A stretch of 64,000 nucleotides of DNA, taken from positions 62,001-126,000 of the forward strand of contig NKIK01000002.1 of the NCBI GenBank assembly GCA_002256115.1. Direction: 5' to 3'. The DNA is from Burkholderiales bacterium PBB3 (GTDB lineage: Bacteria; Pseudomonadota; Gammaproteobacteria; Burkholderiales; Burkholderiaceae_C). The notes under the pieces were generated by a model. That model did no database searches. It was not told the DNA's origin and saw only the letters and a list, made by a program, of their open reading frames with translations. The position numbers and the translations under genes are program-made. Below are positions 39,181 to 55,424 of this stretch, piece by piece. Numbering within the stretch: the stretch's first letter is position 1; every line of letters begins with the position of its first letter.

Positions 39181-39384
39181 CTACTTGGCTCCACCCGCTT
39201 GAATGATGACGTTTTTGACGAGCGTCTTGAATCTTTCCCCGTTTGCTTGCACTACTGTGATCGTGATGTGGCCAGTCTTGCTGGTGTTGATATCTCGAAC
39301 GACACCAGACTTGCCCGCATGCGTTCCGCCGACTACCGAGCAGAGATCGCCGTCTCTTGGATTGGTCTGAGATTCAGTTGCCAT
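39181..39384 (-). CDS. Small KOW-motif protein (cassette-borne)
   Basis: 67 residues. The segment DGDLCSVVGGTHAGKSGVVRD has the KOW motif known from ribosomal protein L24 and NusG, followed by a short beta-strand pair (HITITVVQANGERFKTLVKNVII). It probably binds RNA; no specific role is known. GGAG lies 8 bases before the ATG at 39384, and another ATG is two codons earlier. A core-site sequence GTTAGGC (minus strand) lies at 39437-39443, so the gene looks like the third cassette of the cluster. Confidence 0.65.
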   Translation of the reverse strand: MATESQTNPRDGDLCSVVGGTHAGKSGVVRDINTSKTGHITITVVQANGERFKTLVKNVIIQAGGAK

Positions 39385-39436
39385 GCTCATTGCTCCGTTT
39401 GCTCATAGTGGTTTGACGACGGGGGTGTTCTGCGAT

Positions 39437-39443
39437 GCCTAAC
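39437..39443 (-). other. Integron-type core site
   Basis: GTTAGGC on the minus strand, fitting GTTRRRY, lies about 50 bases before the KOW gene. It is the third such site in the cluster. Confidence 0.55.
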
Positions 39444-39600
39444 GAGGCTGTAAAAAAACCAACGCGCATGTCGCAATAATGGATTTTGGAGGGTGCTTCA
39501 CCCGTTCCCAAGGTTGGGATCGTGGCGCATACGCCGTTTTGATGCGTTGACTTTTGGATGGGTGCATTTGGAAGCTCTGCAAAAGTTTTTTTACAGCCTC
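39444..39600. repeat. 157-bp segment with 16-bp perfect inverted ends
   Basis: GAGGCTGTAAAAAAAC at 39444-39459 is the exact complement of GTTTTTTTACAGCCTC at 39585-39600. The segment adjoins a core site on one side and the attC-like site at 39597 on the other. It may be an unusually long attC or a MITE-like insertion. No gene is seen inside. Confidence 0.6.
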
Positions 39601-39683
39601 AACGCCAAGCTAAAAGGCGGGCAACATGAGCCGCAAAGCGGCAATCTCTCTGTTGCGCGTCCTGGTTCAGCGCCGGGTTAGGG
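39597..39683 (-). other. attC-like recombination site 2
   Basis: On the minus strand the 87-bp region begins CCCTAAC and ends GTTGAGG, in the place of attC R-double-prime and R-prime sites. Inner arms (CGGCGCT, AGCTTGG) are imperfectly complementary, and a GCCGC-TTT-GCGGC hairpin lies near the centre. It starts 13 bases after the stop of the 39696-40145 gene, as expected for a cassette. Confidence 0.6.
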
Positions 39684-39695
39684 AGCGTACTGGAA

Positions 39696-40145
39696 TTAGG
39701 ATTCGTCATCCTGTAGCACCATGAAAACAACGGGTGGAATTTCTTTGTTGCACCCGAAATCACAAACAAAGGTAGCGTCCATTTTCTGGATCGGAGCAAT
39801 GTGTGATCTGTAGTAGTCCATCGCTCCCTTAACGTCTTTAGTTGGCTTGTAACTGCGGCGATAAATTACGGTTGGTGGCCCTGATATACCCAGAGAGCAG
39901 CTTAATTGACTAAGACTCTTGCTCGGCCAACAGTATTTGAATGGCCTCTTATCGGTATTGGTAATCTCAAATAGAGGTTTGTGTTCGCTACGTTTTTCAT
40001 CGGGAGAACGTGATGTGACAAACGTTTCATTGGTTGCCATTGACATCACATAGAACGTCCACGAATAGTAGAAAAAATCATCCTTGTCAGCTGCGTGCAG
40101 AAGCGTAGACGTGACAATGAGAGATAGCAAAACGAATGAGTGCAT
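39696..40145 (-). CDS. Secreted protein of unknown function (cassette-borne)
   Basis: 149 residues with a signal peptide (MHSFVLLSLIVTSTLLHA). The mature part has four cysteines (in YCWPS, LSCSL, FVCDFGCN) that could form two disulfides, and ends MVLQDDES. No family is recognised. Base composition is more AT-rich than the neighbouring core genes. The ATG lies 5 bases after the core site at 40151, and the stop is followed at once by an attC-like site, so gene and attC form a typical cassette. Confidence 0.65.
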   Translation of the reverse strand: MHSFVLLSLIVTSTLLHAADKDDFFYYSWTFYVMSMATNETFVTSRSPDEKRSEHKPLFEITNTDKRPFKYCWPSKSLSQLSCSLGISGPPTVIYRRSYKPTKDVKGAMDYYRSHIAPIQKMDATFVCDFGCNKEIPPVVFMVLQDDES

Positions 40146-40150
40146 AAGCT

Positions 40151-40237
40151 CCCTAACGTAGAGGTGACCGGCGCTGCGCGGCTTTATCGCGCAGCGTCCA
40201 GCGACCGAAGGGAGCGAGGTCGACCGCCATGTTAGGC
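40151..40237 (-). other. attC-like recombination site 1
   Basis: On the minus strand this 87-bp region starts GCCTAAC and ends GTTAGGG. Inner arms GGTCGACC and GGTCACC are complementary apart from one base, and GCTGCGCG/CGCGCAGC form the central hairpin. The two genes beside it are in the same orientation. This is the canonical plan of an integron attC site. Confidence 0.75.
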
Positions 40238-40247
40238 GTTCTCCGCT

Positions 40248-40760
40248 TTAGCATGGAGGCGACACAGTGCTGATAGTTCCGGCCATGACGCCCTCCACGA
40301 GCCCACTATCGCTGACCGTGTAGATAACACCAGAGCTGGGATCGCGTGGTGAGCGGTAGGTGTAGATCAGAAAGGCACTACCACATTGGTATGCCTTAAC
40401 TTCAATTTGTGATCCGTATGCGCGCCAAACGTCGTTGGCTGAACTCCCTATATGAAGGTTTCGATCTGTCTTGAAGCGAGGCGAGTCGTAGCCGACATAG
40501 ACACCATCAATGATGCCTGTAGCGGAAACCGTGAACGAAAGGCCAACGTACCGGCGGCTAGGGACGACAACGTATCTAGCGTCTTGGTGCGTTCCCTGTA
40601 CCTTAACAAGCGGGACTCCAAGTTGTTTGCTTGCTTCGCCTAGAGCCATGCCGACGCGAGCCGGGCCGAAGCCCTCTGGGGACAACCGGAACTCCTGTGC
40701 GTAGGACACACCGGGACTCAGAAGGAGTAGCAACATTGCGATTGGGGCAGACCAGGACAT
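40248..40760 (-). CDS. Secreted protein of unknown function (first cassette)
   Basis: 170 residues with a signal peptide (MSWSAPIAMLLLLLSPGVSYAQ). The mature part looks like a small beta-rich domain (VGMALGEASKQLGVPLVKV, LHIGSSANDVWRAYGSQIEV), a layout sometimes seen in periplasmic BamE/SmpA-like or lysozyme-inhibitor-like folds, but no family is certain. There are two cysteines (YQCGSA and the terminal SPPC). The ATG is preceded by GTTAGGCGTCGT with no Shine-Dalgarno, so translation may depend on the leader frame that ends seven bases upstream. Confidence 0.68.
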   Translation of the reverse strand: MSWSAPIAMLLLLLSPGVSYAQEFRLSPEGFGPARVGMALGEASKQLGVPLVKVQGTHQDARYVVVPSRRYVGLSFTVSATGIIDGVYVGYDSPRFKTDRNLHIGSSANDVWRAYGSQIEVKAYQCGSAFLIYTYRSPRDPSSGVIYTVSDSGLVEGVMAGTISTVSPPC

Positions 40761-40765
40761 ACGAC

Positions 40766-40772
40766 GCCTAAC
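40766..40772 (-). other. First core site of the cassette cluster (attI- or attC-type)
   Basis: GTTAGGC on the minus strand, five bases before the first cassette ATG, within TCTCGTTAGGCGTCG. It marks the insertion boundary of the array. No integrase gene lies upstream, where parC follows after the leader. Confidence 0.6.
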
Positions 40773-40830
40773 GAGATGTAGATTGGAAAAACGGTCGATA
40801 CATCTTGGCGATGCGGGATAATCTCGACAT
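40768..40830 (-). CDS. Leader ORF of the cassette cluster (20 codons)
   Basis: The frame encodes MSRLSRIAKMYRPFFQSTSR and its TAG lies within the core site GTTAGGC. AGGAGG sits five bases before the ATG, the best ribosome site in this region. The next start codon is seven bases past its stop. In class 1 integrons a short ORF in attI with a strong ribosome site is known to raise translation of the first cassette; this frame has the same position and form. The peptide is basic with no known fold. Confidence 0.55.
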   Translation of the reverse strand: MSRLSRIAKMYRPFFQSTSR

Positions 40831-40880
40831 AAAAACCTCCTGTGAATGGCTTACAGCTTAGGTTTTCTCGAATTTTTGGC

Positions 40881-40909
40881 CTTTTATACAGGTATAAAAA
40901 TTCCGACAA
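40881..40909 (-). promoter_or_regulatory. Candidate cassette-array promoter with palindromic operator
   Basis: On the minus strand TTGTCG is followed after 17 bases by TAAAAG (or after 15 by TATAAA). An 18-bp palindrome, TTTTATAC-AG-GTATAAAA at 40882-40899, overlaps the spacer and -10 region and could bind a dimeric repressor. It is not a canonical LexA box. Confidence 0.5.
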
Positions 40910-41055
40910 ACCCCGCGCTTTGATTGTGCCCAATTCTGGGCGACAAGCTTGCTTTCAACCAAATTGCACCACGGTCTTTCACGACCAGCTCCGCCCGCAA
41001 TGCTGACCTTCAGCAAAACAGAAGAGTAGAGTGCAACAAGTATCAGATTCTAAGA

Positions 41056-54485: not shown

Positions 54486-55424
54486 TCAGCCACGTGGGTG
54501 GTGTTGCGCGTGGATGGCGGCAAGCCGCTCACGCGCCACGTGGGTGTAGATCGTTGTCGTCGAAATATCGGCATGCCCGAGCAACATCTGCACAGCACGC
54601 AAGTCTGCACCGTGGTTGAGTAAATGCGTAGCAAAGGCGTGGCGTAGAGTGTGCGGAGACAAGGGGGAACGAATGCCTGCCAGCACTGCATATTTTTTGA
54701 CCACCACCCAGAACATGACGCGCGACATGGCGGTGCCAGCACTGGACCCGCGCGCGGTGACAAACAAGTCTTGCGTTTGCTTGCCTGCCAATAGCTCCGA
54801 ACGCGGCCCCGCCAAGTATTGGCGCAGCCAAAGGCTGGCCACCTGCCCAAAGGGCACCAAGCGCTCTTTGGCACCCTTGCCCAAGACCCGCAATACGTTG
54901 TCATGGGTTTGGATATTCAGGGTTGTGAGCGTGACCAACTCACTCACGCGCAGACCACTGGCGTACATCAGCTCCAGCATGGCCCGATCACGAACACCCA
55001 ATGCAGTCTGGGTGTCGGGTGCGGCCAACAGGGCTTCTACCTGCGCTTCTGTCAGCGTTTTGGGCACGCGCAACGCCTGCTTAGCCGACTGCAGTTTTAA
55101 GGTGGGGTCTGATTGGATGAGCTGCTCGCGCAAGGCCCATCGAAAGTAGCGCTTAAACACCGTTAAGCGCCGATTGGCACTGGTCGCCTTGGTGCTGGTA
55201 TGCCGATCTGCAAAATAGGCTTGCAGATCGACCTCAGTCACACCGGCAAGGCCGCTGCCACCGCGCCCTTGCAACCATTGCGCAAGAGAAGTCAGGTCGC
55301 GGCGGTAGGCCAGCAAGGTGTTTTTTGCCAGCCCCTGTTCCAGCCACAGTGCGTCAATGAAGGCGTCAATACTATTGATGTCCCGTGGATCAAGCGCATC
55401 TGCAGGACTGGGCTCAGGGGTCAT
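54486..55424 (-). CDS. xerD: Tyrosine recombinase XerD
   Basis: 312 residues. The N-terminal core-binding domain ([19 protein letters not shown]) precedes the catalytic domain with arginine in [25 protein letters not shown] and [13 protein letters not shown] with the nucleophile tyrosine. XerD with XerC resolves chromosome dimers at dif. The start overlaps the stop of the Bug-type gene (ATGA). The N-terminal extension before the core domain is about 15 residues longer than in E. coli. It is distinct from the integrase at 9295. Confidence 0.92.

Follow-up and report, generated by a model that had tools for sequence, protein, structure and literature searches.

We analysed a 64,000-nucleotide stretch of the genome of Burkholderiales bacterium PBB3 (GenBank assembly GCA_002256115.1, contig NKIK01000002.1, positions 62,001 to 126,000), called the window below, in which a small array of integron cassettes lies between parC and a gene with RCC1 repeats. 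Read on the minus strand from parC to the RCC1-repeat gene, the array runs through an attI remnant, a gene for a protein of 170 amino acids (aa), an attC site, a gene for a 149-aa protein, a second attC site, a 157-bp element, a cassette core and a gene for a KOW-motif protein (Table 1). Our main subject is the 157-bp element, which sits inside the second attC site. Relatives, contigs and loci are cited, where needed, by our own handles (G, C and L numbers).

Table 1. Features of the cassette locus, in window coordinates
Feature	Position	Strand	Basis and remarks
KOW-motif gene	39181..39390	-	69 aa; no attC downstream
GTTAGGC, read as the original R' box of the cassette 2 attC, displaced by the element	39437..39443	-	would pair with R'' CCCTAAC at 6/7 positions, by hand
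GTT, target duplication, KOW side	39441..39443	-	read from the sequence
157-bp non-autonomous element (MITE-like)	39444..39600	-	16-bp terminal inverted repeats GAGGCTGTAAAAAAAC at 39444-39459 and 39585-39600
attC of cassette 2; R' now GTTGAGG owing to the insertion after GTT	39597..39683	-	covariance model 35.7 bits, E 3.7e-6 (39596-39683)
GTT, target duplication, attC side	39601..39603	-	read from the sequence
Cassette 2 gene	39696..40145	-	149 aa; signal-peptide-like N-terminus (by eye); without family
attC of cassette 1; uninterrupted, extrahelical base in L''	40151..40237	-	covariance model 29.1 bits, E 1.3e-4
Cassette 1 gene	40248..40760	-	170 aa; signal-peptide-like N-terminus (by eye); without family
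attI remnant; from the first cassette core GTTAGGC (40766-40772) to the altered start of the lost intI	40766..40915	-	homology to attI of relatives
Leader open reading frame in attI, 20 codons; stop TAG inside the cassette core	40768..40830	-	Shine-Dalgarno-like AGGAGG at 40836-40841

The attC sites and the inserted element

Home-made pattern scans for attC were either too strict or too loose (about 10 chance matches per 64 kb); a covariance model took their place. It was built from 17 sites in integron arrays of the PBB3 assembly (three sites, on contig C114) and of its relatives; the window contributed none. Its structure, drawn by hand from the alignment, consists of the R''/R' and L''/L' pairings with one unpaired base in L'', and was derived from the model's own training sequences, which favours it. 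In this structure 80.1% of the cells pair, and the covariation is 0.346, as compared with 0.153 in shuffles (none of 500 reached 0.346) and at most 0.158 in slid structures.

Over the whole window, at E up to 10, the model returned exactly two matches, both on the minus strand and 467 bp apart. They coincide with two 87-bp regions that an earlier reading of the letters by themselves (the sequence-only reading) had singled out for their RYYYAAC- and GTTRRRY-like ends, and for which it had suggested a covariance search. At both sites the R''/R' boxes (RYYYAAC / GTTRRRY) pair by the model, as do the L''/L' boxes with their extrahelical base; the L helix has two non-standard pairs in the attC of cassette 1 and three in that of cassette 2. 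At the scale of the assembly the two window sites have E values of 2.8e-4 and 0.0095, and scoring of 150 of the 4601 first-look candidates gave at least 33 sites at E up to 1, spread over 11 contigs and including three that had trained the model. In Rfam, at gathering scores, only tmRNA and int-alpA matched, and no attC. When the attC of cassette 1 is folded alone with its exact ends, the minimum-energy structures of the two strands both have the R and L boxes paired; folded with a few flanking bases, this site is clearly beyond shuffles (z -2.76 and -3.80 for the two strands). By the covariance model the two regions are attC sites, which the integron integrase, IntI, would recombine as folded bottom strands.

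The second of these sites has been split. The 157-bp element, whose terminal inverted repeats are perfect over 16 bp, lies between two copies of GTT, and its last four bases double as part of the R' box in the attC at 39597-39683. The GTTAGGC letters that had been noted as isolated cores at 39437-39443 and 40766-40772 are indeed present on the minus strand, but neither stands free: the latter is the end of attI and the former a displaced R' box. The core at 39437 belongs with the attC at 39597-39683 as the missing half of a single site, and it looks isolated because the small element came between them. Insertions of this kind account for isolated core sites such as this one.

The element has the build of a miniature inverted-repeat transposable element (MITE), with terminal repeats and a flanking duplication common to an autonomous element and no transposase of its own. 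A DNA search with it in 149 relatives found at least eight places in five genomes, three of them in the PBB3 assembly; beyond the window, copies lie on contigs C114 and C41 of that assembly and in G003, G014, G020 and G072. These non-autonomous copies measure 147-159 bp. Wherever the left flank is visible (seven of seven places, the eighth beginning at a contig edge), CGTT ends an attC-like stretch. The plasmid collection held no DNA match to the element. One reading frame is open in five of seven full-length copies (the window, C41, two in G072, and G020) and broken in those of C114 and G014; with no clear codon pattern by eye, we claim no gene for it.

GTT borders on both sides would also be found on an ordinary short, gene-less cassette with an attC of its own. 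We rejected this reading of the 157-bp stretch and consider its chances minimal, as no attC-model match lies at the 3' end and the perfect 16-bp terminal repeats are common to elements of 1.2-1.8 kb that contain transposase frames.

Placement of related elements and their transposases

The terminal 16-mer, with no flank in the pattern, was searched in the 149 relatives and in 399 genomes of the family (543 distinct genomes). It occurs at 19 places in eight genomes of the first set and at 17 places in ten genomes of the second, four of the latter being the PBB3 assembly again; this makes 32 distinct places in 17 of the 543 genomes. The reversed pattern, used as a control, occurs nowhere in either set. 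GTT flanks 16 of the 32 places and its complement AAC 15, roughly equal numbers that fit the two ends of an element bordered by GTT; only the C114 right end departs from this, being flanked by GTC. At 15 of these 16 GTT-side ends an attC-model match adjoins, with scores between 22.1 and 74.2 bits and an E value no worse than 0.025 over search spaces of 36 to 259 kb; G154:C14 is the one without. In a wider list compiled by hand, which includes mismatched ends, CGTT precedes all 27 left ends and a model match adjoins 23.

The small elements all lie in one direction, the transposase is directed away from attC in 17 of 18 loci where both the attC-side end and the direction could be read, and in every case that the model scored as abutting, the element is on the R' side. 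On a contig of a Desulfobulbaceae metagenome-assembled genome (MAG; L130, 4720-4760), a second left end follows immediately after the GTT of a first element, an arrangement that suggests tandem insertion at a regenerated GTT.

At five places paired repeats enclose 1.2-1.8 kb with transposase frames, which are full in G072:C188 (537 aa) and on C93 of the PBB3 assembly (515 aa) and shortened in G072:C462, G079 and G063. The two full transposases score 293.8 and 297.8 against the NCBIfam IS1182 model (cut-off 270), as compared with 67.8 and 62.5 against the IS5 model (cut-off 140), and their domain matches are DDE_Tnp_1_6, DUF772 and IS1182. These two autonomous relatives are the basis for the assignment to the IS1182 family; the element in the window encodes no transposase.

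Relatives of the transposase also occur in other orders and in a Desulfobulbaceae MAG. A scan of GTDB contigs yielded 14 loci, in MAGs titled Rhodoferax, Curvibacter, Ramlibacter, Polaromonas, Comamonadaceae, Burkholderiales, uncultured beta proteobacterium and Desulfobulbaceae; no terminal repeat was found at the Polaromonas locus. Transposases of lower identity are found in Pseudoalteromonas piscicida (41%), Pseudoalteromonas sp. NC201 (43%), Catenovulum (49%) and two further genomes of the same class (49% and 38%). The plasmid collection contains three records with relatives, and a phylum search at E 1e-50 found the transposase in three of 349 genomes, PBB3 included. The repeats of the diverged homologues start GAGRCTGTAG or GARTCTGTAG, one Catenovulum end reading GAGACTTTAG. 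Read on the attC strand, GTT flanks both ends of homologues 38-49% identical in all five loci where both ends were found (L130, L160, L162, L168, L169); for NC201 (L161) the right end alone was located, again at GTT. Weak attC-model matches adjoin L160 (19.2 bits, E 0.013) and L168 (15.7 bits, E 0.026).

This placement has to be weighed between two enzymes. IntI crosses over in attC at G^TT, and a circle of the element with a GTT junction, recombined by IntI at that point, would leave the two GTTs as recombination products. The joint does sit in the IntI crossover box, on the R' side wherever the model scored an abutting site, and the GTT flanks are almost invariant. However, the ends of the elements contain neither attC nor attI, and the complete IS1182-type transposase that the repeats enclose is sufficient. 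Three of the eight terminal-repeat carriers among the 149 relatives, moreover, have no intI at E 1e-80 (G020, 99% complete; G072, 91%; G079, 82%), though a later loss is possible; such carriers give mild support to a transposase over IntI. We therefore judge joining by IntI to be unlikely.

Several observations weigh against placement by an attC-choosing transposase. Four of the 27 left ends have no adjoining model match (the second G072:C482 copy, the second G020 end, L130, and L137, which is G154:C14), and neither has the diverged 147-bp copy G072:C306, outside that list, which has GTT at both ends. Among the diverged homologues the model found no match at L130, L162 and L169, only attC-like hairpins by eye, and L162 and L169 belong on the same side of the balance. 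Two right ends among all those read are not GTT (GTC on C114, ATT in the Ramlibacter locus L132), and the Catenovulum element has the opposite orientation, with its transposase towards attC. The autonomous copy of the PBB3 assembly lies on C93, a 4.3-kb contig with a flank 94.5% identical to that of C114, and may come from a co-binned strain. The paired single-strand fold that the sequence-only reading proposed as a check arises unforced in the attC of cassette 1, but in that of cassette 2, taken in its state after the insertion, the R boxes pair only if forced (-16.3 vs -18.1 kcal/mol on the bottom strand, -14.3 vs -17.0 kcal/mol on the top). With a few flanking bases, the R boxes are unpaired in the minimum-energy folds of both sites, and the attC of cassette 2 is not clearly beyond shuffles (z -1.35 and -0.87). 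Finally, the choice of attC by the transposase is itself inferred from where the copies lie.

The lost integrase, the cargo genes and other features of the window

The array begins with attI. The attI segment of the window is 71.8% identical over 103 bp (E 2.8e-7) to the attI adjoining intI in G031 (L093), where intI is truncated by the contig end, and 71.6% identical over 88 bp (E 9.9e-7) to the attI of G003 (L079), where intI is full-length. It continues into the start of intI with an altered start codon, and the same altered edge is found in G072:C188 (93.5% over 31 bp). Between this edge and the parC end no intI was found (best tblastn E 0.35). A leader frame of 20 codons with a Shine-Dalgarno-like start and a stop inside the core is present in seven of 14 attI-like sites located by a short motif, the window among them.

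The search for intI proposed by the sequence-only reading thus found none at the locus, and an intact gene on another contig: C114 carries the one intact intI of the PBB3 assembly, which is free of stops and scores 448.8 bits (cut-off 265); attI and an array come after it. Contig C81 holds one intI piece (129.6 bits) and a second that resembles the N-terminus by eye, with a 581-aa frame between them that by eye is like an IS66 transposase. In this region (L140, G000:C81:43000-60000) the apparently split intI is followed by ten attC matches (E up to 0.1) and, by eye, by an IS91-like transposase and a tyrosine recombinase frame. Contig C93 (L037, G000:C93:1-4254) shares a flank with C114 (L008), 94.5% identical over 567 bp, which leads on C93 into attI without intI and on C114 into intI and attI; either these are alleles of a single locus, or a co-binned strain is present. 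Among the relatives intI was found at E 1e-80 in 44 of 149 genomes, including 18 of 90 of the genus (PBB3 counted). The window also encodes a 312-aa tyrosine recombinase, XerD-like by eye (54486-55424, minus strand); with at most 81.4 bits against the integron integrase cut-off of 265, it was rejected as intI.

With two attC sites close together and no nearby integron integrase, the locus is built like a CALIN, a cluster of attC sites lacking an integron-integrase in the available text of PMC8618304 and PMC7923331, and as such the sequence-only reading had classed it. That description holds for the attC sites and for the missing intI, but not for the retained attI and intI edge, from which we read the locus as an integron after intI loss. 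It is no longer a complete integron, with intI adjoining attI, as attI is present and intI gone; it looks like a decayed chromosomal integron, or a CALIN with attI. The origin of a CALIN by off-target cassette insertion is proposed in the accessible part of PMC8618304, and the intact intI on C114 could in principle have built the cluster in this way. Such an insertion would not supply the attI and altered intI start with which the array begins, and we regard this origin as very unlikely.

The three genes of the array are on the minus strand as first described, with open reading frames of 69, 149 and 170 aa, and by eye the two larger products look exported. The genes start 5, 5 and 46 bases after a core, within the 5 to 50 bases first noted. 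An attC follows closely, at 10 and 12 bases, in two of the three genes, but none lies downstream of the KOW gene, which is not a complete cassette. Its product matches the Pfam KOW motif (E 1.3e-4, 22.1 bits) slightly under the cut-off of 22.3. The 170-aa protein has a Pfam match far under the cut-off only and no NCBIfam match, the 149-aa protein has no match in either database, and PADLOC gave no match for any of the three.

The expectation that all three are unexplored cassette cargo is borne out for the two larger proteins and not for the KOW gene. Among the 149 genomes the 149-aa protein is found in PBB3 alone, the 170-aa protein in PBB3 and one relative (30% identity), and the KOW protein in PBB3 and two others (66% and 68%); the three genes are not in fixed order across all relatives. 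The attC model found no site in the 2.8-3.2 kb loci of the two KOW relatives, nor in the locus of the 30% relative of the 170-aa protein. No relative of the KOW protein was found in the plasmid collection, and none of the 170-aa protein in viral contigs.

Elsewhere in the window, a 22-base repeat, GGATAGTGCGGGAGCAGCTCCT, occurs in eight copies with up to 3 mismatches (0 expected), at positions 2302, 31984, 38853, 41079, 43739, 52652, 61587 and 63299, and in 377 copies with up to 2 mismatches in the assembly. An int-alpA RNA (RF02996, 9205-9285) and a tmRNA gene (RF00023, 10778-11166) are some 1.5 kb apart, which may indicate a genomic island at the latter.

A proposed mechanism and its relation to known systems

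We consider it very probable that the locus is an integron remnant whose second attC took up a mini-transposon, mobilised in trans by an attC-choosing transposase of the IS1182 family, joined at the GTT of the R' box, and flanked since then by a duplicated GTT. The placement of the copies suggests that the transposase selects attC. The enzyme making the joint would be this transposase and not IntI; it would recognise the folded attC hairpin, like a relative within the family that acts on inverted repeats, and would join at the foot of the hairpin, in the R' box, duplicating GTT. The 157-bp element would have depended on the transposase of an IS1182-type element acting in trans. The first bases of the elements would yield GTTGAGG or GTTGAAT behind the joint, retaining the GTTRRR of an R box. 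The inserted end GTTGAGG may leave the R box usable: the upstream attC could still recombine, and IntI could move the element along with the next cassette.

A further possibility, more doubtful, is that these elements form an IS1182-type branch dedicated to integrons, which reads folded attC with the polarity of IntI, makes its joint at the IntI crossover GTT, and has ends (GTTGAGG, GTTGAAT) that rebuild the R box. This reading spans several orders of Pseudomonadota and one Desulfobulbaceae MAG. If it were true, each insertion would leave the array working, and the element or its mini-derivative would join the next cassette, movable both by IntI and by its own transposase.

Few mobile elements are known to target attC, the currency of integrons. 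A family of DDE transposases acting on one base step of a structured site would offer a simple system for how a transposase reads a hairpin, and the elements use cassette arrays even where the integrase goes undetected. The leader frame recalls ORF-11 of the class 1 integron site attI1, likewise a short open reading frame ahead of the first cassette; here it is a predicted frame of 20 codons.

In the open-licence literature, as far as its text was available, no report that places IS1182-type elements at attC came to light; the papers that mention IS1182 together with attC and integrons name it only in lists of elements or families, not as an insertion in attC. In the available part of PMC11089894, IS5-family transposases are the commonest in phyllosphere cassette arrays. 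A table in the available part of PMC9908598 files IS1182 and IS5 together; since the two families are sometimes filed together, IS1182-type elements may have been counted among the phyllosphere IS5 without their target being described.

The locus resembles a CALIN in its attC-bounded cassettes without a nearby intI, and differs in the retained attI and intI edge and in having one attC split by an element. Insertion sequences at cassette attC sites are familiar from the IS1111-attC group (Tetu and Holmes 2008; Post and Hall 2009; accessible parts of PMC12444791, PMC11187229, PMC11089894 and PMC11616780). IS1111 elements combine a DEDD transposase with a guide RNA, seekRNA (PMC11187229, available text), whereas the elements described here have an IS1182-family DDE transposase, terminal repeats, a duplicated GTT and small non-autonomous copies. 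We rejected membership in that group, the matches being to DDE_Tnp_1_6, DUF772 and IS1182 and not to an IS110/IS1111-type DEDD transposase. Group IIC-attC introns are likewise mobile elements that prefer attC, also in CALINs; unlike the present elements they are, in the available text, retroelements in the orientation opposite to the cassettes, with the insertion sequence TTGT/T (PMC7923331).

The closest parallel in transposase family is IS1272, a member of the IS1182 family. According to the accessible part of PMC5678879, the targets of IS1272 are inverted repeats, which it replaces without target duplication; Siguier et al. are cited there for palindrome-targeting members of the IS1182 family. 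The elements described here likewise have an inverted-repeat target, but the attC hairpin is kept and GTT stands on both sides.

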